Source: Deuterostichococcus epilithicus
Taxonomy: Eukaryota; Chlorophyta; Trebouxiophyceae; Prasiolales; Stichococcaceae
Direction: 5' to 3'
Length of the DNA stretch: 64,000 nucleotides
Assembly (NCBI GenBank): GCA_033439295.1
Contig: JAVTLE010000015.1
Span: 2,666,001 to 2,730,000, forward strand
In this document: piece after piece, positions 10,201 through 51,900 of the stretch
Numbering within the stretch: the first letter of the stretch is position 1
How the letters are laid out: every line of letters starts with the position of its first letter
Notes under the pieces: model-generated
The model's input: only the letters and a program-made list of their open reading frames with translations
Told to the model about the DNA's origin: nothing
The model's database searches: none
Position numbers and translations under genes: made by a program

Positions 10201-13200
10201 TCGCAACGGAGGCCTGCCTCGAATCAGCGGGATGGGTGACGCCTCCGCAGAGCCGCAGTGGTCGATTGAATACACCACCACTCCGGCCGCCGTCAGGTGA
10301 CCGCACATGGGGCTACCGGCAGCATGCCGGCAAGTCGAATGCACAGCTGGCGACGCGTCAAAGGAGGGTGGGCTCATACTTTCTTCCCATGGTGCCTGCG
10401 CTCACCTGCGTGGCGCGGCGGCCGGCGTGCGCCGCTGCAAGGCCGCCCGCCTTCGCAGCCGCCTTGACCGCCGCGTGGTTGACGGCCAGCCGGAAGGCGA
10501 CCGGCTCGCCGACCGCGGGGTTGATGCCGCCGTCCTGCGGCAGAATTATAGGATTTAGAGGGCGGCGGCAGATGTCTGCACCAGCGGCGCGTTGACAGGG
10601 AGCCTGCGATCCCAATCGTTTGGCAGCCTCCCCAGCAGATCTGTAATGATGACGAAATGATAGTGCAGACCTCCACAGAGGGCGGCCCATCACTGCGGCA
10701 CACATGATTGTGCAAAGGCAGCTCCGAAGAGCCGTGCCTTGCAGAAGCAGCATCCGCAGTGAGAACCGCACCAGGTCATAGAAATCAGGGTCATGCAGGC
10801 AAAGCGGCGCGAGCGCCGCCGACTGGCCCAAAGCTGGGTCCCTGTTGTCTGACTGTACGGTGCACCGTGGAACTGCATAGTCGTGGAGCTTGCTGTGGCG
10901 AGGACTCTGTTCAATACTACCCCATGGATGAACGACTTGATCGGGGCGGATAGAAGAATTGAGACAGGCAATAGATCACTGCCAGGTCTAGCAGGCAGTA
11001 CGAAAGGCACGGGTGCACGGTTTTCGGACCAGGGTGGCCGACAGCCCTCAGCGCGACGGCTGCGGCAATCTGCCATCGAGGTTCTCACCGCCAGGTCGGC
11101 CAGGCCATACGCCAGGCGGGAGGGCACGCCGTCCGGGCCAGTGTAGTCGACGGCGCCCGGCGCGACGGTCGCGCCGCGGTGCACCGACAGGCGCTCCGCC
11201 ACGCGGCCCTGCAGCACCTCCTCCGACAGGCTCTCGAAGACCGCGGCGCCGGGCTCCGCGCGGCACACCCTGCAGTGCAATGATGGAAGCGTGGAGGAGC
11301 TGCATAGACGCGGCTGGCCCGACATTGTGCGGCACACCCGGCACACGGCGTTGGGGGCGGGTCTTGATTCGTTACAGGGATGCATGAGGGTGCGGTTCGA
11401 GTGGGAAGGGAGTCGCGGGGCGGTGCAGGAGGCAGGAGTGCAGGCCTTTGAGATCACTGCATCGCAGACCTTGCTGGCACCTCACACGGCGTCAGGGAGT
11501 GCTGGCAGTCTCAAAAATGCTGTGTGCACTTCTGGCAAGCGCGCGTCATTTGGGGCAAACATGACAGTGTTGCCGACACAGGCTGGACAGGCTGCAGAAG
11601 AGGCGTGGCATGAGCGCCTCCCTCAAGTGCAGGCTGTTGAGCCGTCTGCCTTCGGCAAGACTGCCCAGCCCAGAATGCACGGTCGCCAGAAACCACAGCA
11701 CGTGGTCGCCGCTGTTGAAGCAAGCAGCTCGGCTACGGGGGCCTTACCTGACAGCAGCCAGCTTTTTGGATTCCGCGTCGCGTGCCTTTGCCTCCGGATC
11801 CCGCACCACCGTGAATTCTACATCGTCGCCCACCTGGTACAGGAATCGGCAAATCTCAACGACCACCTTGAATGCCGGCCAGCGGCACAGCAGGCGCCGA
11901 AGTACCACGGCACGTGCCCCGATTTTGGCGCTGCCGTGACGTGTCTGAAGTCGCCCACCTGGCGCAGAGCAGAGGCGTGCACAGATTGACGAGAGTCCAC
12001 CAGGGAAGTTTGAGTCTGGCCGTGCACAGACGCACAGGACACCGGCATGTGGAGGGAGCCTGTGCGTGCACAGACATGCCGCAAGTCCGGCTGAGCACCT
12101 CCCTCCACGGCTCTGTACACCTCCTGGAGACGGCGGTGACGATGCAGGCCCACAGAAGCGGTGGGGGGCCGCAACACGGCCGCCCCCAGGGCACGAGTTG
12201 TGAGACGCTGCGCCGCACCTTGAGCGCGCCCTCCAGGCCGTCGGCCAGGCTGCTGAAGTGGAAGAAGACGTCCAGCGGGCGCTCCACCGGCCGGATGAGG
12301 CCCCAGTTGTTTTTGAGCGTGGACACCTGCACAGTGCAGCGGCAACCCGACGGCTCAGCGCCAGCGGGGTTTGGAGAACAACGCATGCAACGGCCCGTCA
12401 CACAGACGGCTCGGAAGAGGAAGAGGAAGCACATGTTGCTGTATGACGTATGTGATGCATGCGGAGGAAACAGCTCTGGTACGGAGTGTCAGAGGTCAGG
12501 GTTCTGCGCCCGCGCCTGGCCCAGCTCGCGGCGGTCGGCAGCCTTAGCGAGCAGCGACGCGGACGTCGCTCGGCGGGCGCCTGTGCGCGTGTTGTGCACG
12601 ACCGACAGCAGCAGCTCGTCGCCCTCCCCCAGCGCGCCCGTCCCCTCCGGCAGCTGCACAAGCGAACAATTTTGCAGCTTAAAGGTTGACGCCAGCCTCG
12701 AGATGAAGGACCATGCAGCAGCAGGTCGTCGCCCTCGCTCAGTGTCCCCGCTCCCTCCGGCAGTGGTCGGAATCGTCGGTAGCATTCAGAGGTTCACTGT
12801 TGTACTTGAGGGACTCATGTCGCTCAGCAACCCGAGCACGCGTCCCCACGGTGCGGCGCAACCCGCGTGGCATGCCATGAAGCTCCCGCGCAAGCAGGCT
12901 CCGTCCCACGGGCAACCAGGCTCAGGCGCACCTGCAGCTGCGGTATGGCAGTCCACAGGCTGCGCGCCACTCCCGTTAAACCCTGTCTCGCACCTGGTGC
13001 TTGCCAAAGGCGCAGTGGAACTCGAGGCCGGCCTCGTCAACGAAGGCTGCGACGCCGTCCTGCAGCTGCCGCGCACGCGCCTCCGCCGCTGGCCGCACCA
13101 CCCGAGCACGCACCGGGCCTGCGCGCCAAACCCTAGGACTTTGCCGAACTCCAGGGAACTGTACATGTTCGGGGCCTGATCCGGTTCCGATATCAGGGCA

Positions 13201-16200
13201 CTTCAGCAGTGGGCGCGCCATGAAGCGCTGGGTTTGACTCGTGTTCCAGTGCCGATGCGTGAAAGTCGTTTCAGAGCCTGCGCGAGCGGCGGTGATATGG
13301 CACACATCACACCGGTTGTACCTGTCCCAGGCTAGGCTGTCCAAGACTGGGTAGGCTGGGCGCGGTGTCAGGAAAAGGTGGCGAACAGCGCTCACCTGGC
13401 AGCGGGCGCTCAGCCGCCGCTGCAATGGTGCCGGGCGGCAGCAGCTGCAGCGCGACCGCCGACTCGCGCCCCGACTCCTGCGCAGCAGAAGGGGGGGTCT
13501 CACCCTCGGCCCCGTCGCAGCAGCGTCAGCCGCGCTGGCGGACACACACACTGGGGCATGCCCCATGCTGTGTAAATCCCACTGGCTGTCCCTGGAGCAC
13601 CTCCAGCAGAAAGCTGCAAACATTCTGGGCCGGCCCGGGTTTAAACCCTAGGTGGCAGCACCTCGTCGGCGGCCGCGGAGAAGGAGACCTCGGCGCCTTC
13701 TGCGATGCTGGCCTTTGGGAAGCCGGCCTCGCTGAAGTGGAAGAACAGGCGCGCGTCCCGGTCCGCCGCCCTGTAGAGGAAAGAGCGTCTGCGGTTTCGA
13801 TTGGCCCCTTCCACAGCCAGGCCCGGCGGCTCGGCAGGCCGCTGCGCAAGAGGCTCGTCAGTACATGTGCGAGCGACCTGGTCCGCTGCTCTGTGGCGCA
13901 GTGGGGCGTGGAGCTCCGAACACATGCTGCTGCCCTGCACGCCTTCGGGGTGGTGCATTTGCCCGCTGGTCAGTAGCTGCAGGGGGGGCATGAGCACGCA
14001 CACTCAGAGAAACAACTTCTGCAATCGATGTTGAGGGGGCCTGTGTGGCCTCGAACCTTTAGTGTTTCCGACCGTGACTCCGGTGTCTCTGGCAGGTCAG
14101 GCAGGAGCCACGAACCTGAGGAAGCCGAAGTTGTCCTTGGTGGTCACGATGAAGCCGTTCTCGCGCATGCCAGCAGCAACTGGCGCAGCGCGGCGGGCAC
14201 CCAGCGGCGGCTCCACATGCGCCGGCTTCACCAGCACGACCTGTGCATGTACGCACACTCGTCAGTCAGGCGCAGCAGTTGCAGGTTCTGAGTAAACCAC
14301 ATTACATCGTGACGCTGTGCGTCCGCCCCACCCCTCAGGCGGGATGGGACGGCGCAGCCGCAATCGTTCTCCAGGATGCTATCACACACCCTGGCCACCC
14401 AAGCCCGCCACCGCTTCAGGCTGGCTAAAGGCTCAGCAGGGCGCTAATGGTCCATGTACAGGGCGGCCCCCACTTTCTTTCACTCGCAGGCATGCCAAGC
14501 TGGGCGGCTTGCTCGCTCACCTCCATGGCTCACTTGAGCTGGCCAGGGTGCAAGCGTGAGGTCATAGTGAGAGTACGGTGAGTCCTTCCATAAGGGCAGC
14601 TTTACGAGGAGCTTCTCTTAGGCGTGCCACACTCTATAGCTGTGAGCGGCCCGGAGCAGCAGTTCGGGCCACGAGGCAGAGCTCCACCTCGTCGTCAACG
14701 TGCACCAGGCAGCCTTGCTCAAGGTCCTCCTTCCAAATTTTCATGGTTGCACGTCAGGTCACTCCTCACCTCCGTAGCCTTGAGCTGTCCGGAGCGGCGG
14801 TCCAGCGACAGGCGGAAGTCCACCTCGTCGCCGACGTGCAGCCGTGGCGCGTCCGCGGCCAGGTCTCCGCCCTCGAAGGGCAGGCCCAGCACCTGCCCCA
14901 CGTGCTGCTGCTTTCCCTCCTTTCCCTCCTTCCCCTCCTTCCCCTGGTTCCTGCCGCTCGAGCCCACACCCGCCTCCTGCTGCCTCTGCGGCTGCTGCTG
15001 CGGCTGAGGATCCTGACCAGACTCGTGCGGGTGTGGCGTGTCAGGCGACTGCTCGCCGCCCTGCCGCTGCTCCCCGCCGGCGTTGCCGTTAGCGGTGCCG
15101 CCAGCGCTGTGCCCAAGCCCCGGCGGCATGCTGTGCGGCCGTGCCGCATTTGAATCGGGTTCCGGCGCCGCCGCCGCCGTGCCAGGCGCCGAGCTGTCGC
15201 CACTGAGTGTCGCGGGCAGTGGCAGCGGCGATGTCCAGCTGATGCGGCCGCCGTACGCCTCCTTCACTTCCAGGATTGCAGGTGTCATGGCGGCGGCAGG
15301 GCACTCAAGGCTGTGATCACACCCACCCAGAAACACAGCACCCCGTGCGGCTGCATGCGACAGCTCCAAGCGAGCTGTGCTGGGCAGCATGCGTGCAGGC
15401 AGGAGCCACTCCTGCCGAGATGCAGCAGCAGCAGCAGCACAGGCGTGCAGACCCTCACCTCGCGATGCCTGTGGCCGCCGCGCAGCTCGCGCTCCACAGT
15501 GCCACGGTGTACCTCATCCATGAACGGCGGCAGCACCCGCACCTTGCAAACAACATGCAGCACATTTTTTTGAGATCTGAAGCGCTGCGCCTGTGCCTTT
15601 CTGCAAGCCGATGTGTGAGCGCTGTGCCTCTCTGCCATCTGGTGCATCCTGGCTGAGCTGCTCACGACTCACGAGATTGGACAACCACGCTGAAATGCCT
15701 GCCTTCTGGTGTGCACCATGCAGATATCAGGCGTGCAGCATGCACGAATTCAGTTCCGAGTAGGCACGCCTTTTTCAGACGAAGAAGCATCAATGTGTTA
15801 GTTATGAGACGCAGACGCTCACCTCGATGGCGACTGTGCGACGGTTCTGCTGCGGGTCGCCTTCCACGATGGTGAACTCCACTGGCGTGCCCGGCTGAAT
15901 GGCCTCGGATAGAACGATCCGACCCTGATGCTGCTGCTTATCCGACGACTGCTGCTGATCGGGCGCTGCTGCGTCAGCGCCGTCATGGCTGCTCCTGCTG
16001 CCGTTGCCGCCGCCGCCGCTGCCGCTGCTGCTTGCCGAGTGCGGTCCGAGCTGCAGCTCGCTGGCGTGGAAGAAGACCTGGTCCCGGCGGCCCGTGTAGC
16101 ATCTGCGATGCGGTCCATACCATGACGATCAGTTCGGCATTGTCAAAGCGTGGCGTGGTGCAACACTTGAACCAGGCGGCTCCAAGGATGTCATATCCCC

Positions 16201-17085: not shown

Positions 17086-19647
17086 ATGCCGGCGCACGCA
17101 AAGGCCGGCCGGCGGCAGCCGCCGGCCAGCGAGATCACTTTCGAGCAGTTTCAGCGGTCGACAGGCAGCGACAGCGACGACAGCGACAGCGACAGCGGCC
17201 CGGAGGAGCAGCAGCGGCGGCGGCCTCCGCATGCAGATGCACGTGCGCTGCGGCGCATGGAGATGGGACCCTCAGATGAGGATGAAGACGACGACGACGA
17301 TGATCAGGATGCCGGCGAAGCGTCCGAGGATACCGCTGGCTCCTCAGGCACCGAGGTCAGCGACGAAGAGGGGGACGCGTCGACATCGGAGGCCGGCATC
17401 TCGTCCTCCGACGATGATGGCGACAGCCTGGTGAGCGGCGCGCTGCGCATGCTGGTGCATCTCTCCAGCGAACAGGCTGCACCGCCCTGCAGCCGTCGTG
17501 AACACATGGGCGGCGAAGCAGCTGGATCGAGTGTCCATCGGGCTGCAAGTTTGGCGTCGCTTATGCGCCAATGATTGGCAACATCTGACATGCAGCAGCA
17601 ACAGGCAGTTAGGCAGGGAGAGGCAGGCGTCAGCGACGAGCAGAAGCAAGAACCACTAGCCTCAGAGCACTCCCCTGCTGTCATCGGAGGCCTGCCCACC
17701 GCTCTGCTGCAGGAAGACGTTCCATTCGAGGAGCTAGCAGCACGGCGGGCCGGTGGTGGGAGAGCAGGGCCGTCAGGCCGAAGCGGCAGCGGCGGCGTCG
17801 GCCGGCAGACAGACAGCAAATCGGAAAGACGCAAAGCAGCAGCGGTGGCGCACCGGGAGAACAAGAACCGCCCGGCAGAAGCCAGCTCGAAGCGGCCCAT
17901 TGGCCGCCTGCGCGATGTGATGCAGGCCCCCAAGCTGTGAGCCCTGGCTTCGCCACACGGCAGCACGAAGCTGTGCCTCCTAATTGTGCATGCGACGGGC
18001 AGTTTTTGCCAGTCTGCGTCGCACAGCAACTGCATGGCAACCGGGCAAGGACATCAGCACGCAGGGGGCAACGATGCCGCGGCAACAACTTCATCAGCAA
18101 AGTTGTATTCTCTTTTCGCCGCAGGGTGGCGAAGGACCCGCGCTTCGAGGACCTGAGCGGCGCGTACAATGCGGACCGTTTCCGGAAGCAGTACTCCTTC
18201 CTGTACGAGGAGCAGCTGCCGCAGGAGCGCTCCAGCCTCAAGGCGGCCTTGAAGGTGCAGCGGCTCAAAGGCATTTGTTTCATTTCTTGCGATGCGCATT
18301 TTCGAAGGTCATGTACGAGGGACCTGTACGAGGAAGGCCTGGCGCGGGAGCGGTCCAGCCTGGAAGCCGGCTTGAAAGTGCGGCGCTCAGCCGTGCAGAG
18401 GTCGTGTCTATCCTAAGCGGCCGCCCCGCAGAGGAGCGTAGCGCCACGAGTGCGGCAGGGGAGAGCTCGGTAGGAGCCCGCCTTCAGAGGAGTCACCAGC
18501 CTGCCGCGCTTTACAGCTATGACGTCAAGGTAGCTGCCGGGCGCCTGCGCTGGCCAGAGGCACATACCGCCGATCTACACCCCACCTGACGCTGCCCTGT
18601 GCAGAAATGCGAGCAGTGCGCAGCGCTGGCTGTGTGGCACTGGGCATGGTCGGGCTGCAAACCACCCTGGCTGCGAACCCGCCTGACGCTGGCGACTTGG
18701 TCCCTGTGCATTAAGCCAAGTGTGGACCAGCGGGTAGTTCCAGTGGCGCGGGGTGCACTTTTAGGTTCAGGGTTGTGCACAGTCTGAGCCGCAAATCTTG
18801 CCAATGGTGGCACTCACATTCCGTGTGCAGAAAGCCAAGAGCGTGGGCATGCTGGATCAGCTGGCGGCGCGGGCGCAGGCCTTGGGACACGAGCGTGTTG
18901 CCACTTTAGGCACCCCTTCCTGGGCGGGCGGCTCCGGCCTCGTAACCACCTGATGCTGGCCCGAAAGCATTCGACACCGGCCTGAGGCCCTTCCGCGTGT
19001 GATGTTTGCACACAGAAAGTCAAGAGCGCAGACCGGCGGGAGGAGCTGGCGGCCCGGGCTGCGGGTGTGGACGCTGCGCTGCGGGAGGACGCGGCCCGGC
19101 AGAAGAGGCGGCGCTTTGAGGAGGGCCTCAAGGCAAGTGGCCCGCTCCTCGTGGGTGTTGCTGCTGCGAGTTGCACTGGGTCCAGCAACCTTATTGATGT
19201 GAACAGTCGTGGAGGGTCAATGCGTCAGACGAGGAGTGCAGCTTTCAGGATGGGCTGAACGCACGCAAGGTCCAGCTCTCCTGCGGAGGTTGATTCACGA
19301 AGACCAGTATATCTTCAGTCGATATTTGCATTGGTGATGACAAGACGGGGGTGCCATGCGGCACCACCAAAAACACGTTTCTGCGGAGGAGAGAGGCTCG
19401 AGGCGCAGTGGCCCTCAGCACGCATCGTGCATGCCCTGCACAGGCGAAGGAGCGGGCGGCGGTGCGTGCCGGCAAGAAGCCCTTCTACCTGAAGAAGGCG
19501 GACAGGCGGCGCGCAGAGCTGCTCACAAAGTACGAGGAGCTGAAAAAGGGCGGCCAGCTGGAGCGGTACATGGCCAAGCGGCGGCGCAAGAACGCGGCCA
19601 AGGACCACCGCTACGTGCCGCGCTCTGGCGGGCGCGGCGACGAGTGA
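17086..19647 (+). CDS. RRP36: rRNA-processing protein RRP36
   Basis: Exons 17086-17430, 17596-17936, 18125-18254, 19016-19132 and 19444-19647 give 378 aa with consistent phases. The N-terminal third is a low-complexity Ser/Asp/Glu-rich stretch. The conserved RRP36 core follows: SSKRPIGRLRDVMQAPK, KDPRFEDLSGAYNADRFRKQY, then a basic helical region and the diagnostic end GKKPFYLKKADRRRAELL...KYEELKKGG...KRRRKNAAKDHRYVP. RRP36 works in the nucleolus in the 90S/SSU processome, in the early cleavages that release 18S rRNA. The ATG was chosen because it is the first in frame. Intron 4 starts with GCAAGT after AAG, a GC-AG intron. Introns 3 and 4 flank a region with relic copies of exons 3 and 4. 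The gene is head to head with the CSDE1-like gene. Confidence 0.93.
18321..18377 (+). repeat. Relic copy of the 3' half of RRP36 exon 3
   Basis: These 57 bases align without gaps to 18198-18254 (42 of 57 identical by eye) and still read LYEEGLARERSSLEAGLK against the true LYEEQLPQERSSLKAALK. A donor-like GTGCGG follows, as GTGCAG does in the real exon. I saw no clean in-phase acceptor before it, so I treat it as an unspliced duplicate. Confidence 0.7.
18831..18885 (+). repeat. Relic copy of the 5' half of RRP36 exon 4
   Basis: An acceptor-like GTGTGCAG is followed by codons reading KAKSVGMLDQLAARAQALG, matching the true exon start KVKSADRREELAARAAGVD at 19016. A second, weaker copy follows a GTGCAG at 18605. 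The copies lack a matching donor and read into stops, so they appear to be dead exon fragments. Confidence 0.65.
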
Positions 19648-23400: not shown

Positions 23401-24253
23401 TACAGCGCCACGCACCACAAGGTGCGCTTTCGGACTGGTGTCTTACCCTGCTCGGCGTCGTCTGCCCAACAGGCAGCGGTTGTGCGGCTCCCGGTTGCAG
23501 ACGCTGTGACCGGCCCTTTGACGCAGAGCCAGCCACAGCTGGTCGATGGTGTGCTGGTGGCCGGGATCGGCAGACCGTTCTGTCTGTTCACGCTGAGTCG
23601 CTCGGGCTTCCTTGCTGCCGCAGGTGTACGCCAGCGGCGCCGACGCGGATGAGGCCCGCGCCCTGGCAGCGGCCGACGCGGTGCCAGCCGGCAGCAAGGG
23701 CGCCACCGCCGCCACACCGGCCGCAGCACCCGCCGGCCCTCGCCCCTTCAAGTGCGCCGCCTCTCCGGCCTGTCCGGACCCCGCTCCCGCCGCCTGCCAG
23801 CCTTCTATGTGCCACACTGCAGGCATGACTGTCCTTCGGAGGGTAGAGAATGGGCTACCTGTCGCGGCTGCTCCTGCCTGTGGTTTGGCAAGCTGGCAGT
23901 GGTCTGACGGAGCCGCTGTCCCATGCGGGGGCGGCCGTCTGCACTGCAGGACGCCACGCTCGTGCAAATATTATTTATCATATACTATAGGGTTATATCG
24001 TATAATATTTAGATGGGAATTCTGCGGGTTGCACCTCGGCGACCGGGTTCCTCCCACCCTGTGCAGGTGGGCGCAGCAGCTGGCGGGAATCGACTTCCTG
24101 CCGCCTCCGCCGCCCGGCGGCCCGCCGCCGACGGCCGCCGACGTGGACGGCCACGTGCTGGCGGGCCTTGCGGAGCACCGCGCTGGCGGGCGGGCGCTCA
24201 AGACGCTGGAGGCGCTCCGGGCGGCGTGCGCACCCGCTGCGGCCGAAAAGTAG
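20455..24253 (+). CDS. THOC5: THO complex subunit 5
   Basis: Exons 20455-20619, 20905-21117, 21455-21583, 22170-22367, 22674-22931, 23326-23421, 23624-23751 and 24067-24253 give 457 aa with all phases agreeing. THOC5 hallmarks are the coiled-coil segment LEGLSLQLANLQYQRRHHES followed by CLDARSAYTEADISLLPEAEF, the block ELLPLPLHIALAQLLAAR, an acidic Ala-rich insert, and the C-terminal RPFKWAQQLAGIDFLPPPPP. THOC5 is part of THO/TREX, which couples transcription and splicing to nuclear mRNA export. Intron 1 needs a GC donor (AAG then GCGAGT) to join ILDIK to GAHRAVFE in frame. The start is the first ATG of the conserved exon. The protein is shorter than human THOC5 (683 aa), mainly because the C-terminal half is reduced. 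Confidence 0.92.
23966..24010. repeat. AT-rich palindromic island in the last THOC5 intron
   Basis: AAATATTAT at 23966-23974 and ATAATATTT at 24002-24010 form a perfect inverted repeat around a nearly all-AT spacer. It stands out sharply from the GC-rich surroundings. Confidence 0.7.
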
Positions 24254-27111: not shown

Positions 27112-27298
27112 CTGCGGCTCGGCAGAGCTGGAGCATGTTGCCCTGTCGGGTGCACGGCGCCCGAGGCGTGCAGACTCCGCATGGTGCGCCGGTATCGGAT
27201 TTAGGTTGCAAAAGGGGCAAAATCACCGCTCAGCAGCTGCCTAGACCGGACTCCGACACCAAATGAGTTCACGGATGCGGTGACACCCCAATCACCAG
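27112..27298. promoter_or_regulatory. Short divergent promoter between UVR/NTF2-like gene and small unknown gene
   Basis: Only about 190 bases separate the minus-strand start at 27111 from the first plus-strand exon I can support. If that small gene has a 5' exon, it must lie here or overlap the minus-strand gene. No core element was recognised. Confidence 0.35.
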
Positions 27299-29023: not shown

Positions 29024-29905
29024 AATGGCGCCTGGTAGCAAAATTGCACCGCCTGAAGAAGGGGTCTGCACAGCGACTATACGGAGATCTGGAGCTCCGG
29101 CTGTAAATCCTTCAGCTGCCTAGGCTGCCGCCCCAGCGGCAGTGCTGTGACCGGCGCGTCAGCGACCATGGCAGGCAGAGCAAGCACAGCCACCATTCAT
29201 CCTCGGAGCGCCTTTCCATAGCTGGGAAGCAAGGCCTCGGGAGCTTCTGACGCAAAAAGTGTACATAGTCTGATAACGGAGATGGCGATGTATTGATAGA
29301 GCTTGCGGGTGTGTCTGCGCCGCTGGCGCCGCCGGGCTGGATTGGCCATGCTGCAGGTTTCCCTCTCAGGAACTGATGCCGGCACGGCATCTTGAGTTGT
29401 GTGTTTGCGGGCGTCGTGGCTGGCGACTCTGCTGGGTGTTGTCGCTTGGGATCAAACTTTGTGTTCCTGGCTGTTGGGGTTTCCTGGTTGTTGGGGTTGG
29501 TTGTTGGGTTTCCTGGTTGTTGGGGTTGACAGGAGCGGTCAGACAACATCAGAACAACATCACACCGGGTCCGCTATATCCGCGATACAGGCGGCAGCAG
29601 AGAGTTGCTGGATTCGCACTAGTGCAATGTATCCTTGTGCGAGTACCTCTCAGGTAGAAACAGGAAGCTGTAAAGTGAACAATCGAGCATGGTTATGAGG
29701 TCAATATAACAGTGACCTATCGCAGGGTTGAATATATCCTTCGACAAAAACAGACGTCAGCTGCTCGACGACTGCGCAGAGTTGCATCCCTTACGCGGTG
29801 TGGCCGCAAGCCTGCTTTACGCCCGCCATCACTGCAGTCATGCAAAGCGGACGAAGTCTTGCGTGGGCATCTCGGATGTAGCGAGAACGGTGCTGCCCTT
29901 GGTGA
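29024..29905. other. Convergent intergenic region
   Basis: This lies between the stop of the small unknown gene and the stop of the UVSSA-like gene. It contains a GT-rich minisatellite at 29464-29528. A 145-codon open frame on the minus strand (29112-29549) is partly translated minisatellite and was not accepted as a gene. Confidence 0.45.
29464..29528. repeat. GT-rich minisatellite
   Basis: Three copies of a unit close to TTCCTGGTTGTTGGGGTT lie at about 29464, 29481 and 29510, with a shorter TTGTTGGG piece between the last two. The strand bias (G and T on top) suggests a locally G-rich structure. It is not a telomere repeat. Confidence 0.75.
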
Positions 29906-36083: not shown

Positions 36084-39000
36084 ATGCTGGACTACCTGGC
36101 CATCTTCACCAAGGGTGGTGCGCTGCTGTGGGCGTGGCAGCTGAGTGCGCTGCGGGGTGACCCGGTCGGCGCGCTTGTCCGCACCTGCCTGCTTGAGGAC
36201 CGCTCGGGCGAAAAGACGTTCGCCTACACGCCGCCGGGCGGCACGGGCGGCGGCTACACCGTCAAGTGGACCTTCCACAATGTGAGAGCCGCGAAAATGG
36301 TTTTCCGCGATGCTCATGGCCGTGGTAACTGCGGCGGAGCCCTGTCGACATGTACGACATGCAGCATGTGTGCTCATAGAAAGCGCAGGATACGACCTCG
36401 CAACCTGCGAGGGCCAAGTCTGTGCCTCCTGACACACGGCGGCTGATGCCAGTGGCTCGGCCGGCTCCTCACTTTCTTGTCTCCAGAAGTGCAACTTGTG
36501 ACCAGAAATGGTCGCCCCCCTCAACTCCAGACGTTGCATGCCAGACTGAAACCGTGATTGCAGAGAGCCCCGTGTGCGACTGGTCGGTTGTTATGTGTTC
36601 ACAGGCGCTGCAGCTGGTGGTGGTGGCGGTGCACGCCCGGGCGCTGAGCCTGCTGTACGTGGACCAGCTACTGGAGGAGGTCAAGCAGGTGGGCGCCTGC
36701 ACCCCAGCCTTGCATGACCTTGTCAAGAACACATAGTGGATAGCGCTCGCGTAGGCTGCTGCTGCCACACGCGAGCTAGCTGCTGGTGAGGACCAAGCAG
36801 ATGGATATCCGGAATATGAAACCTGGCTCACTCCAGAGATCCATGCGCTTGACTTCAAAACCAGCAGCTAGCTCTCGTGTGGCAGCAGCTGCACATCCTG
36901 AAATCCTCATGCTTGAAACCGTTGGGCTCAGTGCTGGCAAAACCTGGAACATGTCGTCAGGAAGGCACTGCACCGCATGCCGACCGGAAGCCCCGAAGCT
37001 GTTCCTATGACCCCAGGCGCCACCGCTGCCGTCCCTCAACCTGCCGTCCTGCAGGCATTCTGTTCATTCCGTAAAGCATGTCAGGTTCCAGAGACGAACG
37101 CCTTTCATGATGCAGGCTTTTGTGGTCAAGCACTACCAGCCGCACTTATACGAGTACCCCCAGTTTGACGCCGCCTTCCGCCGCATGCTGGCGAATGCCG
37201 AGGCGGCGGCCGAGGCGGCGCGCCGGCCAACCGCGGTGCAGTGGAAGGCGGGGCCGGCGGGCGCTGCGGCCAACGGCCGAAGAGTGGGTCGTGCTCGCCT
37301 GTGTTTCATCATCCTGATGCAGTGCTCGCTCATGCCCAGAAAGGTCGGACTGCTGATCTGGCCAGCCTCGAATGGCCAGGCGGGGGTGAGCTGGCACATC
37401 AGGCAGGCACTTGCGACTGTCTGACCGGCTGCAGCTGCGGCTGCAGCCCAGCGGCGCATTGCATGCACTGTCAGGGCTTGCGGCCAGGGCCCGATGCAGC
37501 TCCGAGCAGAACCTGCCCTGCTGTCGGGCGTGCTGGTGCCAGACCTGAGGGTTTGACGTCTTGTCGCGGCCGGATTGCACACGTGCGGGGTTATCAGTCG
37601 GCTCTGCACTCAATGCTTGCTTCGAGGCGGCAGATTGCAGAACTGGACTGTTGGGGCTTCGGCGTGGCGATCCGGCTGTGCGCTGTCAAACATGTTTCAC
37701 TGGGCAGAGGAACTGCACTTATTGGCTTGGGCTGGGGTGCCAGCCCACAGCGGCCCTTCAAGCTCATGATCCCAATGCTCAGCTGCTGCCTCACGGCAGG
37801 CTGCGCGGCAGACGGCGGCCGGCGACGGGCAAAGCAGCGAGAGCGGAGACGACGAGGATGGCAGCGATGAGGCGGGCCGGGACACTGGCGGGCAGCATGC
37901 CGCGAAGACCGCTGCTGGCAAGCTGGCACACATGGCTCTGCAGGTGGAGGCCGCAACCTCGTCGTGGACCACACCCTCTGCTTGCAACACGCTAATTTGC
38001 AGGGGCGTGCCCCAGCACAGCCGGCAGTTTACCTGCCCCTGCCGCCCGTTGCTCTGAGCCATTGCTGTCGGAGGGACTGTCGCATGGCGTGACGCTCCAC
38101 TCCTGAACCCCGAGAACAGCGTGTCCCTGCTGCTGCACACTCCATAGCAGCATGGTGAAGCACTGACGAACGCACCCTACAGGACGATGCGCCGTCCTCT
38201 GGCGCCTCCTCTGGTGCCGAGACCACCAGCGCCGAGCGCGGCGCTGGCGCGCCAGCAGCCGGCGGCAAGGCCGACACGGCGTTCGACACCAGCGCACTCG
38301 GCAAGCGGCTGGGGCGGCGGCGCCCGGGCCTGGGCCGGGGCGGCGCCAAGCCGCCGGAGCCGGCGGCAAATGGCAGCCCCTCGAAGGACGATTCGAAGAA
38401 GCCCAAGAAGAAGGTGCCCCATTTGAGGCCGTGTTTCACATTGCCTGTCTGCCAGCGAGGTACCGGTGGGTTGGCGGCAAATTCTGCACGGCCGCAGCAT
38501 GCACGCCCTCCGAGCTCATCTCGCCAACGCCTGTCCCTGCCAAGGGCTGCACGGCCTCGTAAGCTTGTTAGGTGCATCGCATATCCAGCTATATGGGCAT
38601 GTAATGAGTCGAGATTTGATCTGCATGGCAACCGTGCCATACATTGTGCGGGCCACCGGCACAGCATGCTGCGAGTACCCTCGGAACTTGACTCAGCACC
38701 TGGCTGTCACAGGAGGCGCGCACCTGGGATGACGCCAAGGGCAAAGCCAAGGACCTGGACTTTTCTGCGGAGCCCAATGGCAGCGCTGCGGATGTCAAGG
38801 GAAGCGGGAAGCAGCTAGACCTGGGCGCCAGCCTCGTGGATGCCGCTGACGCCGCCTCCGACGACAACTTTTCCGAGGTGTGTTCTTTGAAGACCCTGTA
38901 TGCAGACAGCGGATGTCGGGTAGGGAAGAACCTGCGGCAAACGGTTATCCGCCATTTGTAGTAGGCATTGGTGCACCGCCTGAGCAGCGGCAATTTCACG

Positions 39001-42000
39001 ATACACCACAATCGAGTCTGGGACGAGGGCAACATTCACTGCCTCAGCCGTATTCCATCTCATGTAAGGCCTAGGTCCTGCCTACACGCAAGTCACACGC
39101 TGCCACCGGCAAGGCATTCGTGCAGGCTGTGCATGACACCTTGCCTGCAGGCGGTGCTCATTGCATGTGCACATCGGCTGCAAATGATTCCATGTACAGC
39201 ATCCTTCAAGGTCCTGGCCTCCCTCTTCAGGACATTTCACAAGGATTGGCGGGCAGGCACAGTGGCAGCAGCGGCCCACCAAACACTGACATGAGCGCGT
39301 ATCTATTCATTTGGGGCAAGGATGTCAGTCATACACCTGCCATCAGGGGCCGCCTACCATCATCTACGTTGCATATGTCATCCCCGAGCGGCACAGACAA
39401 TGGGAGCCCTGTCGAGAATGGAGCAGCTCGGCGTCCGCTGCAAGGGGTGCCCTGTATATCGCTCTTTCTCAGCAGCTGAACATTCTTGGATTTGCTAAGG
39501 CTGCACGTCTTGAGGTGTTTCAAGACATGCCACCAGTGCATCATGCAGCCGCAACGGTCGCAAAACTGGAAGCACCTTCAAGAGGGGCACTGCCGCGTCA
39601 GCAAGCTGTTCGTCCGTACGTGTCCTCAAGGTCCAGGTGTGCCTCCCGGGTGCCCCAGGGACATTCTGTCCCCGTGCCACACCACAAACCTGTGCCATAC
39701 CTGCTGCAGGGCGATGAGGAGGCGCTCGGGGCAAGCGCCGGGAGCGGCGCAGACACGAAGGGCTGCCCGAGATCCAGTCTCAGGTCACAAGCAGGCACGA
39801 GTGGTCATCAGACGGGTGCCGACTCTCTTGCCTCTGTGCTCAGGACGAGGACGCGCTTGCGGCCGGCGGCGCCGGCGCCGGGAAGGGCGGCTTCCTGTCC
39901 ACCTTTGTGCGCAGCCTGGGCGTCAGCGTGGTCGGCACGGGCGCGCTCACCGCGGAGGACATCGCTCCTGCGCTGGAGGCGCTGCGGCGCAAGCTCATGG
40001 AACGCAACGTCGCGTCGGAGATCGCCGACAAGTGAGTGCGGGGGTTGCTCTCTCAGATGTCTCCCTAAAATCATCATGATGTTGGTATCTTCAAGCACAG
40101 TGCCTGCGCTCGAGGCGCCTCGCAGCAAGCTCAAGGTGCGCAGCATCGCTGCAGAAAACCTGTGTCAAGCGTGGTGCCCTATGGTGTTCCATCGCAACAG
40201 CCTGAGCTGGCCTTGAACATTTAGCGGTGGCTGCTGCTGCACCGTGCGTTCACATTTCATGCTCCAAGATGTCCAAGAAGGAAGTTCATTTGACTGTGAG
40301 CAGCCGTGGGGCTGCCACTGCGCGCTTGGAAACACCAGGGTAGCGGGACATGATTGCCCGCTGGTGGTCGATCCCGTTACTGAGAGCCAGACAACGAATG
40401 AAATGGTGGAAGACAGCGCTGCTGGCAGTGCGGGCCTTCAACGTGTGGACACCACCTGCAAAGAGAGGAGTCAGCATAGTGCTGCCTGTCTGGCCAGGAC
40501 ATCTTGGGACGTCCCTGCAGTCCTGATAAGAGCTTTTAGGCTGGTGCAGCGCTGCATGGTCTCTCGCAAAGCCTGGTGCTGGCAGCTCAGGGTTTGGCGA
40601 GTAAGGGTGTGGCGCTGCACTGCTCCGCTCCCTGTCCCTGTGCTGCAGGATGGTAGTCCGTGTGTGCGGCAGACTCTGATGCGCATTTCAGACTGGTCAC
40701 CGTACCGCATACAGTGGCCCTTGGTTTGTCCACAAGCGCAAGACGATTGGCATGTGAGCCTGCCTGTGCCGCAGAGTGGTGGGCTGTGTGGCCCGCGGGC
40801 TGAAGGGGCGGGCGCTGGGCTTGCTGGCTCCATTCCATCACCAGCTCAACACCAAGTCACCAACTCGAAGCGACAGTTCCGCCGCCGGGCGGTGGACAGC
40901 GTTTAGGAGGGCTGCAGGGGCGGGCGCCGGCTGCTGACTCAAGTCAGCCTCGTGCCACAAGCATCATCAGACTCCATGGACTAACGCTGCAGCTGTCAGA
41001 AAAGCTACAGGGTGGTGGACAGCATGCGCGGCTGGCTGGAGGGCTAGGCGCTGGGGTCGCTGACTCGAGTCAGCTTCGTCCCAGAAGCTTCATCACATTC
41101 CCTGTACAACCCTGCTCTCTCCTGCACTACAGGGTAGTGGACAGCGTGCGCGGCGGGCTGGAGGGCCAGGCGCTGGGGTCGCTGACGCGGGTGTCGACGG
41201 CGGTGCGGGCGGCGGTGGAGGCGGCACTAACACGAATCCTGACACCCAAGCGCTCCATCGACATCCTGCGGGAGGTGAGCGCTGCTGGCAGCAGTTCGTC
41301 AGCGACCCTCTGCACGCGGCTTTGCCGTCCAGGCGACTGAAGCACGTCCTGGGCTCAGGGCGCTGGCCTTCCTCACGCCCATGTGGGAGTCGCGACTCTG
41401 GCGTGTTGAAACGTGGATGTGTTGAAGCGTGGATGTGTAGAAGCGTTGGAAGGAGGTTTTCTCGGATGGGGTAGCCGTCATGGGGTTGCGGCAGGTCCGT
41501 CAGCGCCTGAGGTGGTCTCGAGCATGGAGGGGCCACGGCCGCTGCGTGGGTGCCATGCCGAGTGCTTCACAAACGTCCTGTGACAGCTATGCAGCCAGCT
41601 GCAGGAACCTGCATGCAAGCGTGTTCCAGAAGGCTGCCCAAATATGCCATGTACAAGAGGTTGACGTGCTACAATGCCTGTGCGCACGTCGACATGGCCG
41701 GAAGAGGGGAGCTTGCAGTCTCGTCCGTGAGCCGAGCTGGATCTGGCTGGCAGCTGCGGGCCGTGCGCCTAAGCGCAGACGCAGCTCCCCTCGTGCAGCA
41801 CGGTCCGTGCGCACAGGCATCCCAAGACCCGCGAGCCAACAACTGGCTGTCAGCAAGGCAGTTCGACGTTCTTTGCTGACGCCAGTCGAAATGGCTGCAC
41901 AAGGAAAAGGCAAATTGCTGTCGAGGCCTCGAGACTCGTACAGAGGCATCTCCGCAGCCGAAAATTCCTCAGTTCCTCAGAGGTCTGTCCTGTGCGACCC

Positions 42001-44576
42001 TGCGCCCGGTCGAGTGCAAGCGTCGCACACATGCGGGCAGCCCTGCAATATCGTCTGCGGTGGCATCCATACCGCGCATTTGACACCCCTGCTTTCGCCT
42101 CAATCATGCTGTCCTGCCCCCGCAGGCACGGGGGCGGCGCAGACGCGCGGGCAGCTCTCACCTCCGTGGTTCAGGAGTTGCCAACTTCCAGGCCTGAGGT
42201 CGATCCTGCGCCCTGCTGTTTCCCAGGTGCGGGCAGCGCAGGCGCGCGGGCGGCCGTACACCATCGTCTTCGTCGGCGTCAACGGCGTCGGCAAGTCCAC
42301 CAACCTGGCCAAGATCGCCTACTGGCTGCTGCAGAACGACGTCAAGGTGAATGACTACATGTACCGTTTTTTCGCATTTTCATGCAACCATCCAATTCTA
42401 TTGCAGCTCAAGCAAGGCCACTGCTTTTCGCCAAGATTGCATACTGTACGGTTCAGGCCAATGCCAAGGTGGTCGTGCAGGTTGCAGAGAATGCAAGCCT
42501 TGCGATTCGCGACGCTGTACGCCCGGCGGAGCAGGCTGCCTGTCCGCTGCCGGGATGCAGCAGCTTACTCGTAGTCGGATGTCTTTCATGCCTTTTCCAA
42601 CAGAGTTGCTCCTTTTCTCTGCCAAAGCGCTCCGCTACAACCCCCCGCACGCCGCGTGTCGCGGCGCTGGCGTGCATTGCAGCAAGCGGCAAGATTTGCA
42701 CCTGGTGCACCTGCTCGGCAGCTGCTCAGCACCCTTGTAACCTCTTGCCTGCGCGGTGAGACCGTAATGCCCTTTTGCGCTATCGGCTTCGACCACTCTT
42801 TCATTCTCGGAGCTGCCTCGTCTCGTGTGCTGTCCGCCAGGCGCTCATTGCGGCGTCCGCCGGTTACCACTCTGGCGCCATGGAGCAGCCAAAGACGCAG
42901 TGCTGGCGGCGGGGGTGCCGCTTTACGACCCAAAAAATAAGATCCTTTTGACCCTGCCCAATGTCCTGTATAGGTTCTCATCGCCGCGTGCGACACCTTC
43001 CGCTCGGGCGCGGTGGAGCAGCTCAAGACGCACTGCTCGCGGCTGGGGGTGCCGCTGTACGAGAAGGGGTACGAGAAGGACCCGGCGCGCGTGGCGGCAG
43101 AGGCCATCAAGCAGGCCGCCCGCACCGGCTGCGACGCCGTGCTGGTGGACACCGCCGGTGGGTCTGTCGACCTATTTTTTGTGCTAGAGATGAAGATATG
43201 CTTGGGATCATTTGGAAACACCAGCAAATGCTGCGGAGGCCATTAAGCAGGCCGAAGCGCACCGGCCGCGACGCTCGCACATACTACAGAAACATACGTC
43301 TGCTGTGCACAGTTTTACAGACGTTTACGTCTGTAGGCAAGCAGACACAGCCGGTAGGCTCGCCACTCAGTTGCTCGCCTCCACGCACAAGGACTCTCGG
43401 TGCTGCTGCACTTTCGAGTGTTGAGCATGGGGCGGTGCACCAGCACATAGCAGGAGGCAGCAGGCTGTTCAACCCAGCATTGGTCACACTGCCGGCGCCC
43501 TACGAGCCCTGCGCAAAGCCCTCGCTGTACCGCCTCGCCGACTGCCTGCAGGATACTCTGAGCTGCCGATGTGGTGCTGACGCGGACCCTTGCTCCCCAG
43601 TCCTGCGCCAGCAGCCGTCGCCACCCCCACACGCCCGCGCCTCCCTCCGCAGGCCGCATGCAAGACAATGAGCCGCTGATGCGCGCGCTCAGCAGCCTCA
43701 TCGTCACCAACCGGGCATACTCCTGCCGCCGGGTCCACAACCAGTCTCCATGTTGTGTCACTTCACTTCCGTGCACCCCTCCGCAGGCCGCATGCAGGAT
43801 AACGAGCCGCTGATGCGCGCGCTGAGCAGCCTCATCGTCACCAACTCGCCGGACCTGGTGCTGTTCGTGGGGGAGGCGCTCGTCGGCAACGATGCCGTGG
43901 ACCAGCTGTCCAAGTTCAGCTCCCGGCTGGCGGACCTCGCCACGGGGCCGGGCGAGCCGCACACCGTGGACGGCATCGTGCTGACCAAGATGGACGCCAT
44001 CGACGACAAGGTGGGGGCTGTACTGTTTGGAGCTTCAGGGTCGTTGCAGATTGCGGCAGCAGGGCGCCAGCATCCAAGACGGCAGGGGACATTCGTGTAA
44101 GTCAAAGCAGCTACTGCCGCCGCTGCCGTCTGCGGTCTTGGACCAACAATACATGCCGCCATGGCCCGCCGCCACTAGGCATGAAACGATGCTGTGACTG
44201 CCACCATACCGCTGGGAGTGCTCCTGCAGGCCGCTGGTCTTTGGGGTGATATCGCCGGTTGCTGTCAGGCCGAACCCCACGCTCGTCACGGTGAACACCA
44301 GCTTTAGGATACACCGGTGACACTTGGCATGCTACAATTTCTAGCATTCGCCTGCCACCGGATGCGTGCGGCGGTCATGGTGGTTCAGTGGACCGGGAGT
44401 CGACAGCTGACATTCAATTGGTCTCAGCCTGTGCCATTTGTGCCTGCCAGGTGGGCGCTGCTCTCAGCATGGTGTACACCAGCGGCGCGCCGATCATGTT
44501 CTGCGGCGTGGGCCAGACCTACGTGGACCTGCGCCGCCTCAATGTCAAGTCCGTGGTGCACTCGCTGCTCAAGTGA
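36084..44576 (+). CDS. SRPRA: Signal recognition particle receptor subunit alpha
   Basis: Exons 36084-36281, 36605-36688, 37116-37283, 37800-37943, 38183-38413, 38713-38877, 39844-40031, 41133-41274, 42227-42346, 42974-43157, 43787-44010 and 44451-44576 give 657 aa, close to the animal length (638), with every phase agreeing. The N-terminal SRX longin domain ([31 protein letters not shown]) binds the beta subunit. A charged linker with KKPKKK follows, then the helical N domain ([20 protein letters not shown]) and the GTPase: P loop [25 protein letters not shown] split by an intron, TKMD and GVGQTYVDL. It is the ER docking protein for SRP-bound ribosomes. The large introns contain several relic copies of exons 8 to 11 and a MITE-like hairpin. 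Confidence 0.97.
36758..36889. mobile_element. MITE-like 132-bp element with 30-bp terminal inverted repeats
   Basis: Arm 36758-36787 (GCTGCTGCCACACGCGAGCT...) pairs with 36860-36889 with one mismatch in 30. The 72-base middle is AT-richer and has no open frame. It lies in SRPRA intron 2. I saw no clear target-site duplication, so the mobile-element call is tentative; it could be a simple inverted duplication. Confidence 0.45.
40775..41195 (+). repeat. Tandem array of about 120-bp units ending in SRPRA exon 8
   Basis: Units start near 40775, 40887, 41011 and 41133; each begins after an acceptor-like or pyrimidine-rich stretch and contains a version of GGTGGACAGCGTGCGCGG...GGCGCTGGGGTCGCTGAC. 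Only the last unit keeps an open frame and continues into the functional exon 8 ([18 protein letters not shown]). The upstream units carry in-frame stops and are relic exon fragments. Confidence 0.75.
42430..42478 (+). repeat. Relic copy of the 3' end of SRPRA exon 9
   Basis: CGCCAAGATTGCATACTG...CCAAGGTGGTC aligns with GGCCAAGATCGCCTACTG...TCAAGGTGAAT at the end of exon 9, including the donor; roughly two thirds of bases match. It lies about 80 bases into the following intron. Confidence 0.55.
42841..42943 (+). repeat. Relic copy of the 5' half of SRPRA exon 10
   Basis: After a CCAG, GCGCTCATTGCGGCG... follows the true exon start GTTCTCATCGCCGCG... at 42974 for about 100 bases, including GGCGCCATGGAGCAGCC against GGCGCGGTGGAGCAGCT. 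The frame is broken, so it cannot replace the real exon. Confidence 0.65.
43222..43275 (+). repeat. Relic copy of the 3' half of SRPRA exon 10
   Basis: GCGGAGGCCATTAAGCAGGC and the following GCGCACCGGCCGCGACGC match GCAGAGGCCATCAAGCAGGC and the following CGCACCGGCTGCGACGCC near 43088-43138. Together with the copy at 42841 it brackets exon 10 with duplicated halves. Confidence 0.6.
43653..43711 (+). repeat. Near-identical copy of the 5' part of SRPRA exon 11
   Basis: The 59 bases after a CCTCCGCAG match exon 11 from 43787 with four differences, all synonymous (CAG/CAA, GAT/GAC, AAC/AAT, CTG/CTC). The acceptor is duplicated too. There is no matching donor after the copy, so splicing to it would not give the normal protein. 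Confidence 0.85.
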
Positions 44577-48396: not shown

Positions 48397-48986
48397 GGCT
48401 CCGATGCATTCTGGCTGCTGGTCACTGGTGCTCAAACCATCTCAGGAACAAGACGCACCTGTCGCAAGAGTGCTCTTCACCCTCCGATGCCATGTTTACT
48501 TGAATGCCAAACAAAGCGGTGCAAACTCCGAGATTTGAGCAATGTTTGCCGTGGTTTTCAACAGCTGGGGAGACCTAAGCACAGCATCAACAAGGGCAAC
48601 CTACCTGAATTAGCAAGAAACTGCACTAACTTGCACGATAAGATCACGCGCAGCACGATACAAATCCTGGCTGCAGTTGTGCGAGCAAGACGCAGATGCA
48701 GGCAAGAAAGTCCGGAACAGATAGTCGATCTCGTCGTTTCAGCAGCTGCAAGCAAGTTTTGGATATCCAGCAACCCCATCCACCACGTTGGCCATTTGAC
48801 ACCATCCCAGCGTAAAGTCACATCAGAAGCCGCTGCAATCATCACGAAATCACCTTAGAGAGCAGCTGCATCACAGCGCAGCAAACTGTCGCGGATGCAT
48901 GCAGGCATCGCTCAGTCGCCACTGCATGCTGGCAGCCATCCTCGATCAGTAGGCAAGGTAGTGAGACGCCGCACAGCCCTGTAGAA
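48397..48986. promoter_or_regulatory. Divergent promoter region of unknown gene and TraB gene
   Basis: If the model of the minus-strand gene is right, about 590 bases separate the two start codons. The stretch 48560-48845 is AT-richer than the coding sequence and holds an open minus-strand frame without good splice sites, which I did not call. Confidence 0.35.
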
Positions 48987-51900
48987 ATGCAGGATTTCCC
49001 GCGCACGTTTGAGCCGGGCCCCGGGCCTGCTGGTCTGCAGCGAGCGCAGACACGCGGCCACCATGTCAGCGGCAGCATCAGCAGCAGCAGAAGCAGCCCT
49101 AGGCCGTGCACCCACTGCCACACACAGGCGGCCGGACGCGACCTGTACCACACACGCGTCAGATCGGCGGCCGCGCAACCGCTGCGGGCGTCAGCCATTG
49201 CCGAGGCCCCGGCGCCGGCTCGGGAGCAGCAGCCGGCGGCAGGCACCAGCAGCGCGCAGCCGCCGCTGGGCCCGCCGCAGCGGCCAGAGTCGCCGGCAGA
49301 GCTGCCGGCGGAGCTGCGAGACGTGACGGCGGTGTTGAGTGCACCAAACCCTGACGCCCCTGGCGGCCGCACGCTAGTCTATGTGCTCGGCATGAGCCAC
49401 GTCAGCCGCCGCTCCGTCCAGCAGATCGAGCAGCTCATCCGACTGGTGAGCAGTGCTTTGCGTGGCTGGTCTCCTAGGTGGCAGCTCTGCCGCGTGCTCG
49501 ACAGGCAGCCTGACACATGGCGCGTCGGTGCACCGCCGGACCCTGGCTTGGGACTGCCCGCCTCTCAGTTTGGCGCGCATGACCAAGCGCCGCGCGAAGC
49601 CGAGTGCAAGGTGCAGGCGCAGGTGGCAGTGGACATGTGCAAGGATAGCGAGACAGACAGGGACAGCAGCCTGACCACCTGGAAAAGCCCAGCTCAACCC
49701 AGCTCAACTGCGGACTTGTAGCTGCTGACGGCGGGTCATCATGTAAACCTCCAGGTGCAGCCGGAGGTGGTCATGGTGGAGCTGTGCAAGGACCGCGTCA
49801 CGGGGCTGGTGGACCGCGACGCCGTGGAGATGGCTCGCTCCCACTGCGCGCGCGTCAAGCTCAGCGGACTGCCGTCCGACAAGAAGGGCTGGCCGTCTGC
49901 GGAGCAGCTGCTGCGCCTTGTGCGGACGCGCCCCGGCGAGGCCGTGTCTTACCAGGTGGGGTCTCAGAAACATCCGCAGGTGCCCGCTAACGCAGCTTTG
50001 CAGGTGTGGAGCCACGCGGCTGCACGGGCCTGTGCCTGACAGGCTCATGCGCAGCGGAAGATGTGCGGAGGTAGGAAGTGCAGAGGACGTGCGAAGAGCG
50101 GACGCAGTGGGGGCTGGCTTCACATCCCTGATGCCATTCAGCTGACGTGTCCATCACTCATGTCCAGGCGTCGATACGACGCTGTCTCATGTCAGCTCAC
50201 CGTGCGCAGGACATAGAGGAAGACCCCAGCCGGCTGCTGTCCACGGGACTGTTCAAGTCCTGCCGCCCTGTGGTCTTCCCGCCCGCGCACGCCGGCGAAT
50301 ACTACCCCACCTTCCTGCAGGTCAACCCTCGATCGCTCCTCCTGGCCACCTCTGCGCTTCGCCAGGCTGGCTTGCCAATCTGTGGGAGTTTTGCGCAAGC
50401 TCGCCTACTGCCAGCTGTGTGACGATCAGAGAGAGGGACACCCAGCTGTGTCACGAGTAGAAAGAAGCACACCACCCGTCAGCCACCTGCACTTCATGTT
50501 GCGGCACATCGGTGCAGCCTGCTGGCCTGACCACCCTTTCGTTTCACCGGTCTCGTTGGCGGGTCACTGTGCGCTGAGCAATTCTGCTGTGTGACTTGGC
50601 GGCGCAGGACCAGGAGTCGGGGTCGCTCAAGGCGCTGCGGCCGATTGGCGCCGCGGAGTTTGTGCTGTCGCCGCGGCAGCTGCCGCCCATCAAGGGGTTG
50701 GATGTCCGCGTTGACAGCAGCCTGCGCAGCGTCGCCGACAAAGTGAGGCCCGGACGAGCATTCTAAGTGCCGAACGCTCGGCAGCTGCTGGCTTGCAGTT
50801 GCAGGCCAGGAGCGAGTCAGGGTCCAGAGCAATGGTTCAGACAGGGACCAGAGCAACAGGAATCGGTCGCACGGCTGGACCGTTGTAGCCGGCGGCTCAT
50901 GGCAAGCAGACTCTGCAGGCGCACCGCAGCTGCGCAGCACCTCTGCTGGCTGAGACACCTTGGCCGCCATGTCCGTGCCTGATACCTGGCCCCCAGAGCA
51001 AAAAGGAAAAACGATTCAATGCACCCAGGCGCCGGCAGATGCGCTGGAGGCAGCCAGCAGGTCAGCTGATGGCGCGCGACTGCTGCTGTCAGGTGGTGTC
51101 GCAATATCATCTGACATGTGCGGGTGCTGGCCGAGGCGCCACAGGCGCAGCGCGAGCAACGCTGGGCGCTACTGTCGCAGCGGCTGACTGCGCCACGGCA
51201 GCTGTGGACTCAGCTTAAAGCTCAGACTCACTGCGCTCAGGTGCCGGCTGAGGCACTGGAGACGGCTCGCAAGGCCGCCCTGGCCGCCGCCAACGCCACC
51301 GCCGACCGCGAGGCGGGCTCCACAGTGGACATACTCATGGCGCTTCGCGCCGACCTGCTGGCCGCCGCCGCCGCAGCTGGCCTGGAGGAGGGCTCCGTGG
51401 AAGTCCTTTTCCAGGTGTGCAGCACTAAGGGGGTGTTTTAGGATCTGCTCATGATGGTGACCTGCCAACCAGCTGCAGAGTGGTGAAGCAGGCTTTGCAA
51501 GAGCCTTTCGTACGCTCCTTCTGGCTGCCGCCGCGGCCGTTGGTTCGGAGAGCAACTCTGTGGAAGTTCTGTTCCGTGTGCGAGCCGGCAGTCAGCCTAC
51601 TTTGTGTGTCAGGTGCGATGCAGCGCTGGCTGTGGCGCAGCGCCGCATCGAGACATGCGCAGCTGCACCCCTTCGACGATGCGGCACCCAGACTAAAGAC
51701 TGGGCCCTCTGACAGTCCTTGCAGCCCTGCTACACCTGGGTTCCTATTTGACAATGCCCTGGTCCTGATGCAGTACGCAGAAGCAAGCCAGCACACAGAC
51801 GTCTCGCGTCATCCCTGCGCTGGGGACGCGCCACCGGCATTCGGACTTGCCCACCAGTCGAGGGGCTCGCGAGCAAAATCAGTGCGCGCAGCGGCGATGC

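Follow-up and report, generated by a model that had tools for sequence, protein, structure and literature searches.

Local copies of exon edges in introns of several genes of the green alga Deuterostichococcus epilithicus suggest intron lengthening by duplication

We analysed a 64-kb stretch of the genome of the green alga Deuterostichococcus epilithicus (contig JAVTLE010000015.1, positions 2,666,001 to 2,730,000; hereafter the window, numbered from its first nucleotide) and found that introns in several of its genes carry direct copies of the edges of the adjoining exons, far above chance. A sequence-only reading of the window had claimed such copies for the SRPRA, CSDE1-like, RRP36 and TraB genes, and our analysis confirms the observation: when exons were aligned with their adjacent introns, 14 of 142 comparisons (9.9%) reached a local score of at least 20, compared with 0.08% of 14,200 comparisons in a dinucleotide-shuffle control, 2 of 142 with reverse-complemented introns and 0.5% of 4,462 with exons of other genes. 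The shuffled-sequence check proposed in that reading therefore showed a similarity far above that of the shuffles. The copies are direct and local, they have a direction, their offsets fall in a narrow range, and they differ from the exon as a free copy beside a constrained exon would. These results suggest that introns here have grown through the local duplication of DNA.

Excess, direction and spacing of the copies

A self-trained gene finder, followed by curation, gave 8 gene models with a total of 79 exons; their 71 introns have a median length of 311 nt, and the G+C content of the sequence is 54-69% per 2-kb step. The starting exons of the gene finder included some wrong-frame pieces; the final models can be read in one frame without stops, and their first coding exons are poorly determined. 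Seven of the eight models have Pfam matches: a CSDE1-like cold-shock protein, RRP36, Thoc5, UVSSA, SRPRA, PALP and a SnoaL-like fragment. The TraB model has no Pfam match at E 1e-3, and its name is that of the sequence-only reading only. The SRPRA model (signal recognition particle (SRP) receptor alpha) aligns through the borders concerned to an SRP receptor alpha subunit of known structure (6y32_B, E 4.1e-101). The PALP model, a pyridoxal phosphate-dependent enzyme, is presumably tryptophan synthase beta (TSB), judging by its sequence. Scans of a viral collection and of genomes yielded no usable relative; the former matched a single tryptophan synthase locus (47% identity) and the latter a single locus in a bacterial metagenome-assembled genome (36%).

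Comparisons with z>4.5 numbered 18 of 142 and fell in 14 of the 71 introns. SRPRA and the CSDE1-like gene contributed 6 each, RRP36 and TraB 2 each, and THOC5 and TSB one weak case each, while nothing above z 4.5 was found in UVSSA (11 introns) or the SnoaL-like fragment (2 introns). The pattern is therefore uneven even within the window, and the "genome-wide" process envisaged in the sequence-only reading is an extrapolation. That reading had placed the copies between positions 12500 and 51600, where they do occur, but the affected span is wider, approximately 9.6-57 kb of the window. Weaker matches, with scores of 12.5-16, numbered 13 against 4.7 expected, and some of these are probably real too.

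A scan that made no use of annotation detected 20 close pairs at a score of at least 20 in the window: 16 join an exon with its own intron, 2 are rungs of one ladder of copies, 1 lies within an exon and 1 is an intergenic short-period repeat. Three shuffles, which preserved base composition in 50-bp blocks but not dinucleotides, gave none at 20 and none even at 18. An ungapped scan at offsets of 20-800 found 21 segments scoring at least 17, compared with a maximum of 15.8 in three local dinucleotide shuffles, and self-BLAST of the window (E<=1e-3) returned 7 pairs, of which one is a palindrome and the other six are direct repeats separated by 110-138 bp. High G+C lifts the background, but chance or compositional similarity is scarcely credible as an explanation, since shuffles, reverse complements, exons of other genes and edges compared with the opposite side were all far lower. 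As the self-BLAST pairs were six local direct ones and one palindrome, we also rejected, for this window, a repeat family or introner elements shared among introns.

To examine direction, 60-nt exon edges were compared with both introns, the predicted side being upstream for 5' edges and downstream for 3' edges; the two edges overlap in exons under 120 nt. On the predicted side, 18 of 142 comparisons scored at least 16 and 14 at least 20, whereas the opposite side gave 2 and 0 of 142, respectively (Fisher p=1.3e-4 at the threshold of 16). The proposal that copies of 5' halves lie upstream of the exon and copies of 3' halves downstream is thus borne out. A rank test over all 142 borders was not significant (p=0.074) because most borders have no detectable copy.

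Our detailed set consisted of 18 pairs, with the lengths of the exon parts set by hand. Sixteen of them were taken from the 18 comparisons with z>4.5 and two from the ungapped scan (42227/42127 and 51241/51029). A mid-exon match (the "up" comparison of CSDE1-like intron 9663-10032) and THOC5 intron 23422-23623 were left out. The offset was 100-145 bp in 13 of the 18 pairs. Among best matches with a score of at least 20, 10 of 14 lay in this range, compared with 16% in shuffles (p=4.7e-6), and the range also held 3 of 4 best matches at scores of 16-20 and 7 of 13 at 12.5-16 (p=0.002). Some long offsets are accompanied by a nearer rung, as at exon 41133 (122, 245, 358) and exon 42227 (99, 213), the exons being named here by the border concerned. 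The nearer rung of exon 51241 is marginal (p=0.04), and none was detected near offset 93 for exon 19016.

Individual copies and their present state

In SRPRA (forward strand), the 5' edge of exon 41133-41274 forms a ladder. Its nearest rung, 41011-41070, is 54/60 identical at offset 122, and there the intron part is homologous too (45/57 aligned, z 7.7); the second rung, 40887-40938 (offset 245), has an intron part that cannot be aligned, and the third lies at 40772-40826 (offset 358). The most similar copy, at 43653-43711, is that of the 5' edge of exon 43787-44010 (offset 134). It matches 43787-43845 at 55 of 59 positions, so that the "four differences in 59" of the sequence-only reading is exact, and approximately 23 nt of intron also align, 17/23 by eye. 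Exon 42974-43157 has a 5' edge copy at 42844-42928 (offset 133), and its segment 43094-43137, ending 20 nt before the donor border, is copied at 43230-43274 (offset 136). Segment 39967-40013, near the 3' edge of exon 39844-40031, recurs at 40103-40149 (offset 136), and the 5' edge of exon 42227-42346 recurs twice, at 42014-42067 (offset 213) and 42127-42171 (offset 99-100).

The remaining genes show the same arrangement. On the forward strand, RRP36 has a copy of the 3' edge of exon 18125-18254 at 18323-18376 (offset 123) and of the 5' edge of exon 19016-19132 at 18831-18879 (offset 185). In TraB, also on the forward strand, both edges of exon 51241-51414 are copied, the 3' edge at 51524-51577 (offset 163) and the 5' edge at 51013-51059 (offset 212), as is the 5' edge of exon 49755-49955, at 49609-49650 (offset 144). 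The CSDE1-like gene lies on the reverse strand, with copies of the 3' edges of exons 11089-11269 (10981-11064, offset 109) and 14770-15261 (14632-14704, offset 136-138) and of the 5' edges of exons 12516-12653 (12704-12763, offset 110), 9456-9662 (9862-9921, offset 259-261) and, more weakly, 10033-10164 (10243-10306, offset 141-142). A weaker copy of the 5' edge of the TSB-like exon 56653-56825, likewise on the reverse strand, lies at 56893-56937 (offset 103-104).

The copies look like relics rather than working exons, since their differences fit the expectation for a free copy beside a constrained exon, approximately t, t and 2t at the three codon positions; two constrained exons would show far fewer changes at first and second positions. 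Over 973 sites in the 18 pairs, the differences were 56/328, 59/323 and 90/322 (0.171, 0.183 and 0.280). In the most similar pair all 4 differences are at third positions, as alternative, for example mutually exclusive, exons would have it. However, the rates of 0.17-0.18 at positions 1 and 2 against 0.28 at the third do not have the look of coding constraint, aligned indels occur in 8/18 copies and an in-frame stop in 2/18, and only 4/18 offsets are multiples of three, so that we regard alternative exons as very improbable. The claim that the copies decay after direct, local and directional copying in several unrelated genes is supported.

The adjoining splice site, said to be copied along with the exon half, is present in only part of the pairs: AG stands exactly at the copy border in 8/12 acceptor-type pairs (9 allowing a one-base shift) and GT in 3/6 donor-type pairs. 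As the dinucleotide is usually kept in acceptor copies and in half of the donor copies, a few intron bases, at a minimum, belong to the copy. An origin from spliced RNA through cDNA (complementary DNA) was rejected, as the neighbouring exon is not joined to the copy; the flanks were at shuffle level in 17/18 pairs, and one (42227/42127) scored 11.9 against 7.3+-1.3.

The window contains other features. SRPRA intron 36689-37115 holds a strong hairpin at 36755-36892; the folding energy of the segment 36740-36905 is -90.6 kcal/mol (z -9.3 relative to shuffles), and in our reading the hairpin looks like an inverted duplication or a long precursor of the microRNA type, with no Rfam match. Over the whole window, Rfam gave 0 matches at the gathering threshold and ARAGORN 0 tRNAs. 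A 16-bp unit is present in 2.8 copies at 41403-41446 in an SRPRA intron. Inverted exon-intron similarities with scores of 19-21.3 join 15369-15458 with 15973-16062, 51008-51066 with 51349-51410, 25861-25909 with 26767-26810, and 9181-9219 with 8961-8999. TraB has a within-exon repeat at 51274-51395 (offset 75, or 25 codons; score 21), which is alanine-rich and may be compositional, and two 31-bp tandem copies within an intron (50411-50473, 81% matches), a short, lower-scoring intron-only duplication. An intergenic short-period tandem repeat lies at 29464-29528, with rows of period 13-29.

Origin of the copies

We consider local break-repair duplication of segments containing an exon edge, tolerated because splicing keeps the complete exon, to be the best explanation, with a probability of roughly 0.55. 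Local duplication, most likely through repair of a nick or staggered break with fill-in and rejoining, would copy segments at an offset of mostly 100-145 bp. Where such a segment includes an exon edge, one copy would stay joined to the complete exon and still be spliced, and the other would be left in the intron as a fragment. Freed from selection, this fragment would decay, and the intron would have grown by about the offset; recurrence at one border would produce a ladder such as that of exon 41133. We infer the break-repair origin, the choice of the surviving exon by splicing and intron growth as the outcome. This origin appears most likely because the copies are direct and close, their size is as in the short tandem duplications of rice (PMC7971508), and the nearest rung of exon 41133 resembles a plain tandem duplication. 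The homologous intron part of this rung counts for tandem duplication, and the rung is compatible with decay without gene conversion (p=0.06-0.12).

Several results weigh against this explanation, and they concern the intron side of the supposed unit. A contiguous duplication across the border predicts an intron part approximately as recognisable as synonymous sites. However, the intron part was not above the best mismatched control in 11 of the 12 pairs used for this test, the sole exception being the nearest rung of exon 41133; of the tandem, border-spanning units of approximately 80-220 bp proposed earlier, this rung is the one that stands. Within its ladder, too, only the nearest rung has an alignable intron part and the two older rungs have none. 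In the 17 pairs without 41133, 15-nt blocks on the exon side matched at 0.72, 0.68, 0.65 and 0.68, and intron blocks outward from the border at 0.50, 0.46, 0.43 and 0.40; mismatched controls gave 0.46-0.48 and 0.43-0.47, the first two intron blocks lying slightly over them (z 1.4 each). When contiguous duplication was simulated with the clock estimated for each pair, the blocks matched at approximately 0.65, with minima of 0.53-0.57 in 300 runs, and the observed values lay below all of these. The pairs 43787 and 43157 reject contiguous duplication even under an upper-bound clock with 30% large indels (p=0.01 each); the other 9 non-ladder pairs do so (p<0.05) when the clock is the estimated one and large indels are excluded, but lose this rejection under the lenient setting. 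Furthermore, an indiscriminate process should leave some young intron-only copies of approximately 120 bp, and the 50.1 kb of non-exon DNA contained no independent intron-only or intergenic pair of similar offset at score 20; the non-exon pairs at that score are an intergenic one with a 30-bp period and two intron-intron pairs of the ladder. The explanation we favour does not account for why, in most pairs, the similarity ends so abruptly at the splice site.

The clock used may be too slow, given that exon parts were set by hand and that well-kept stretches are the ones detected. When it was doubled, the simulated blocks fell to 0.48-0.50, so that the first two observed blocks came to lie inside the simulated range and the outer two at its lower edge or beneath it. 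In global alignments, splice-site bases included, the intron parts of the 17 pairs other than 41133 tend towards positive z values (mean approximately 1.1). On its intron side, the supposed unit measures 24 nt or more in 18/18 pairs (with hand-set exon-part lengths and no null computed), which would follow if duplication has to leave the live splice site intact. The sharp edge means either that the copied unit is shorter than the offset, or that conversion has kept the exon parts, or that the clock is too slow.

A unit shorter than the offset would result if an exon-edge piece of approximately 45-120 bp were copied as a templated insertion into the intron, or if a staggered break were filled in and then closed with unrelated sequence as filler, leaving two copies on either side of sequence that was not copied. 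Homology indeed covers less than the offset in most pairs. When the sequence between the copies was compared with that beyond the copy in 17 of the 18 pairs, only 41133 gave a clear match; two long-offset cases (9662 and 51241) are weak, near the top of the shuffles. Daphnia offers a precedent, where staggered breaks that leave direct repeats have been described, as has a passive tendency of introns to lengthen (PMC4202315). However, exon-linked repeats there are 4-12 bp, compared with approximately 34-118 bp here, and pieces taken at random should often miss the border, whereas the copies nearly all start at the border or near it, 43157 being the clear exception, and copies of the opposite edge were 0/142 at scores of at least 20. 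We hold such spaced copying to be possible but doubtful. Alternatively, gene conversion from the live exon may have renewed the exon parts of old tandem duplications whose intron parts have decayed fully, which would yield both the sharp edge at the exon border and the absence of intron-only pairs. This is unlikely, as conversion should also have covered the intron parts while they were still similar, it would have to recur in most pairs, and the nearest rung of exon 41133 does not call for it. Still more tentatively, copying may itself be anchored at the border, so that exon edges with hardly any intron beyond are copied approximately 100-145 bp into the neighbouring intron, perhaps coupled to transcription or splicing, and the introns of this lineage grow in this way; we consider this improbable.

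Comparison with known duplications and the growth of introns

Local break-repair duplication would have close relatives among described processes. Tandem duplications are the most frequent kind of insertion in rice; they are enriched at 50-200 bp, and their share drops above 125 bp (PMC7971508). A model involving CST and Pol alpha-primase derives short tandem duplications from the repair of breaks or nicks (PMC8355091). The copies in the window are likewise direct, local and tens to approximately 200 bp in size. In contrast to perfect tandem duplications, which are contiguous, the pairs in the window mostly show no intron half that can be recognised (11/12 tested pairs were without homology across the full offset), and those with an offset above 60 bp nearly all touch an exon. 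In the RNA-dependent RNA polymerase gene of potato, a tandem duplication crossing an intron-exon border, with the splice site in both copies, created a new intron (PMC4974935). There, as here, the segment crosses an acceptor border; the potato event gave a new intron and exon piece, whereas in the window one copy has turned into intron, at many borders and in several genes.

The Rogers model of intron gain by duplication of an AGGT-bearing exon segment (PMC3443670) shares the direct duplication beside splice sites. However, the intron it produces is one unit long and starts with a copy of the downstream exon, while the copies described here lie near the other intron end. An intron gain of this type was rejected, as the offset equals the intron length in 0/18 pairs. 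The staggered breaks of Daphnia, for which passive intron lengthening was proposed (PMC4202315), are alike in leaving direct repeats that flank unrelated sequence, but differ in the size of the repeats. Among the matches listed from the open-licence literature, none described exon-edge copies that lengthen introns. Among known duplication processes, the one in the window forms a variant whose sharp boundary is unexplained.

Copy-bearing introns are longer than the others, with a median of 522.5 nt (n=14) against 299 nt (n=57) (p=0.003), a comparison confounded by the greater search room that long introns give. By simple arithmetic, 18 units of approximately 125 bp would account for roughly 2 kb of the 27 kb of intron.

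Intron lengthening is often attributed to transposons. The conserved edges of exons mark small local duplications that stay recognisable after the homology of their intron parts is lost, and the rate, size and position of the process could thereby be measured in any intron-rich genome. If similarity proves to drop this sharply at splice sites genome-wide, a simple model of duplication does not predict it, and it would point to preservation of the exon copies or to copying anchored at the border.

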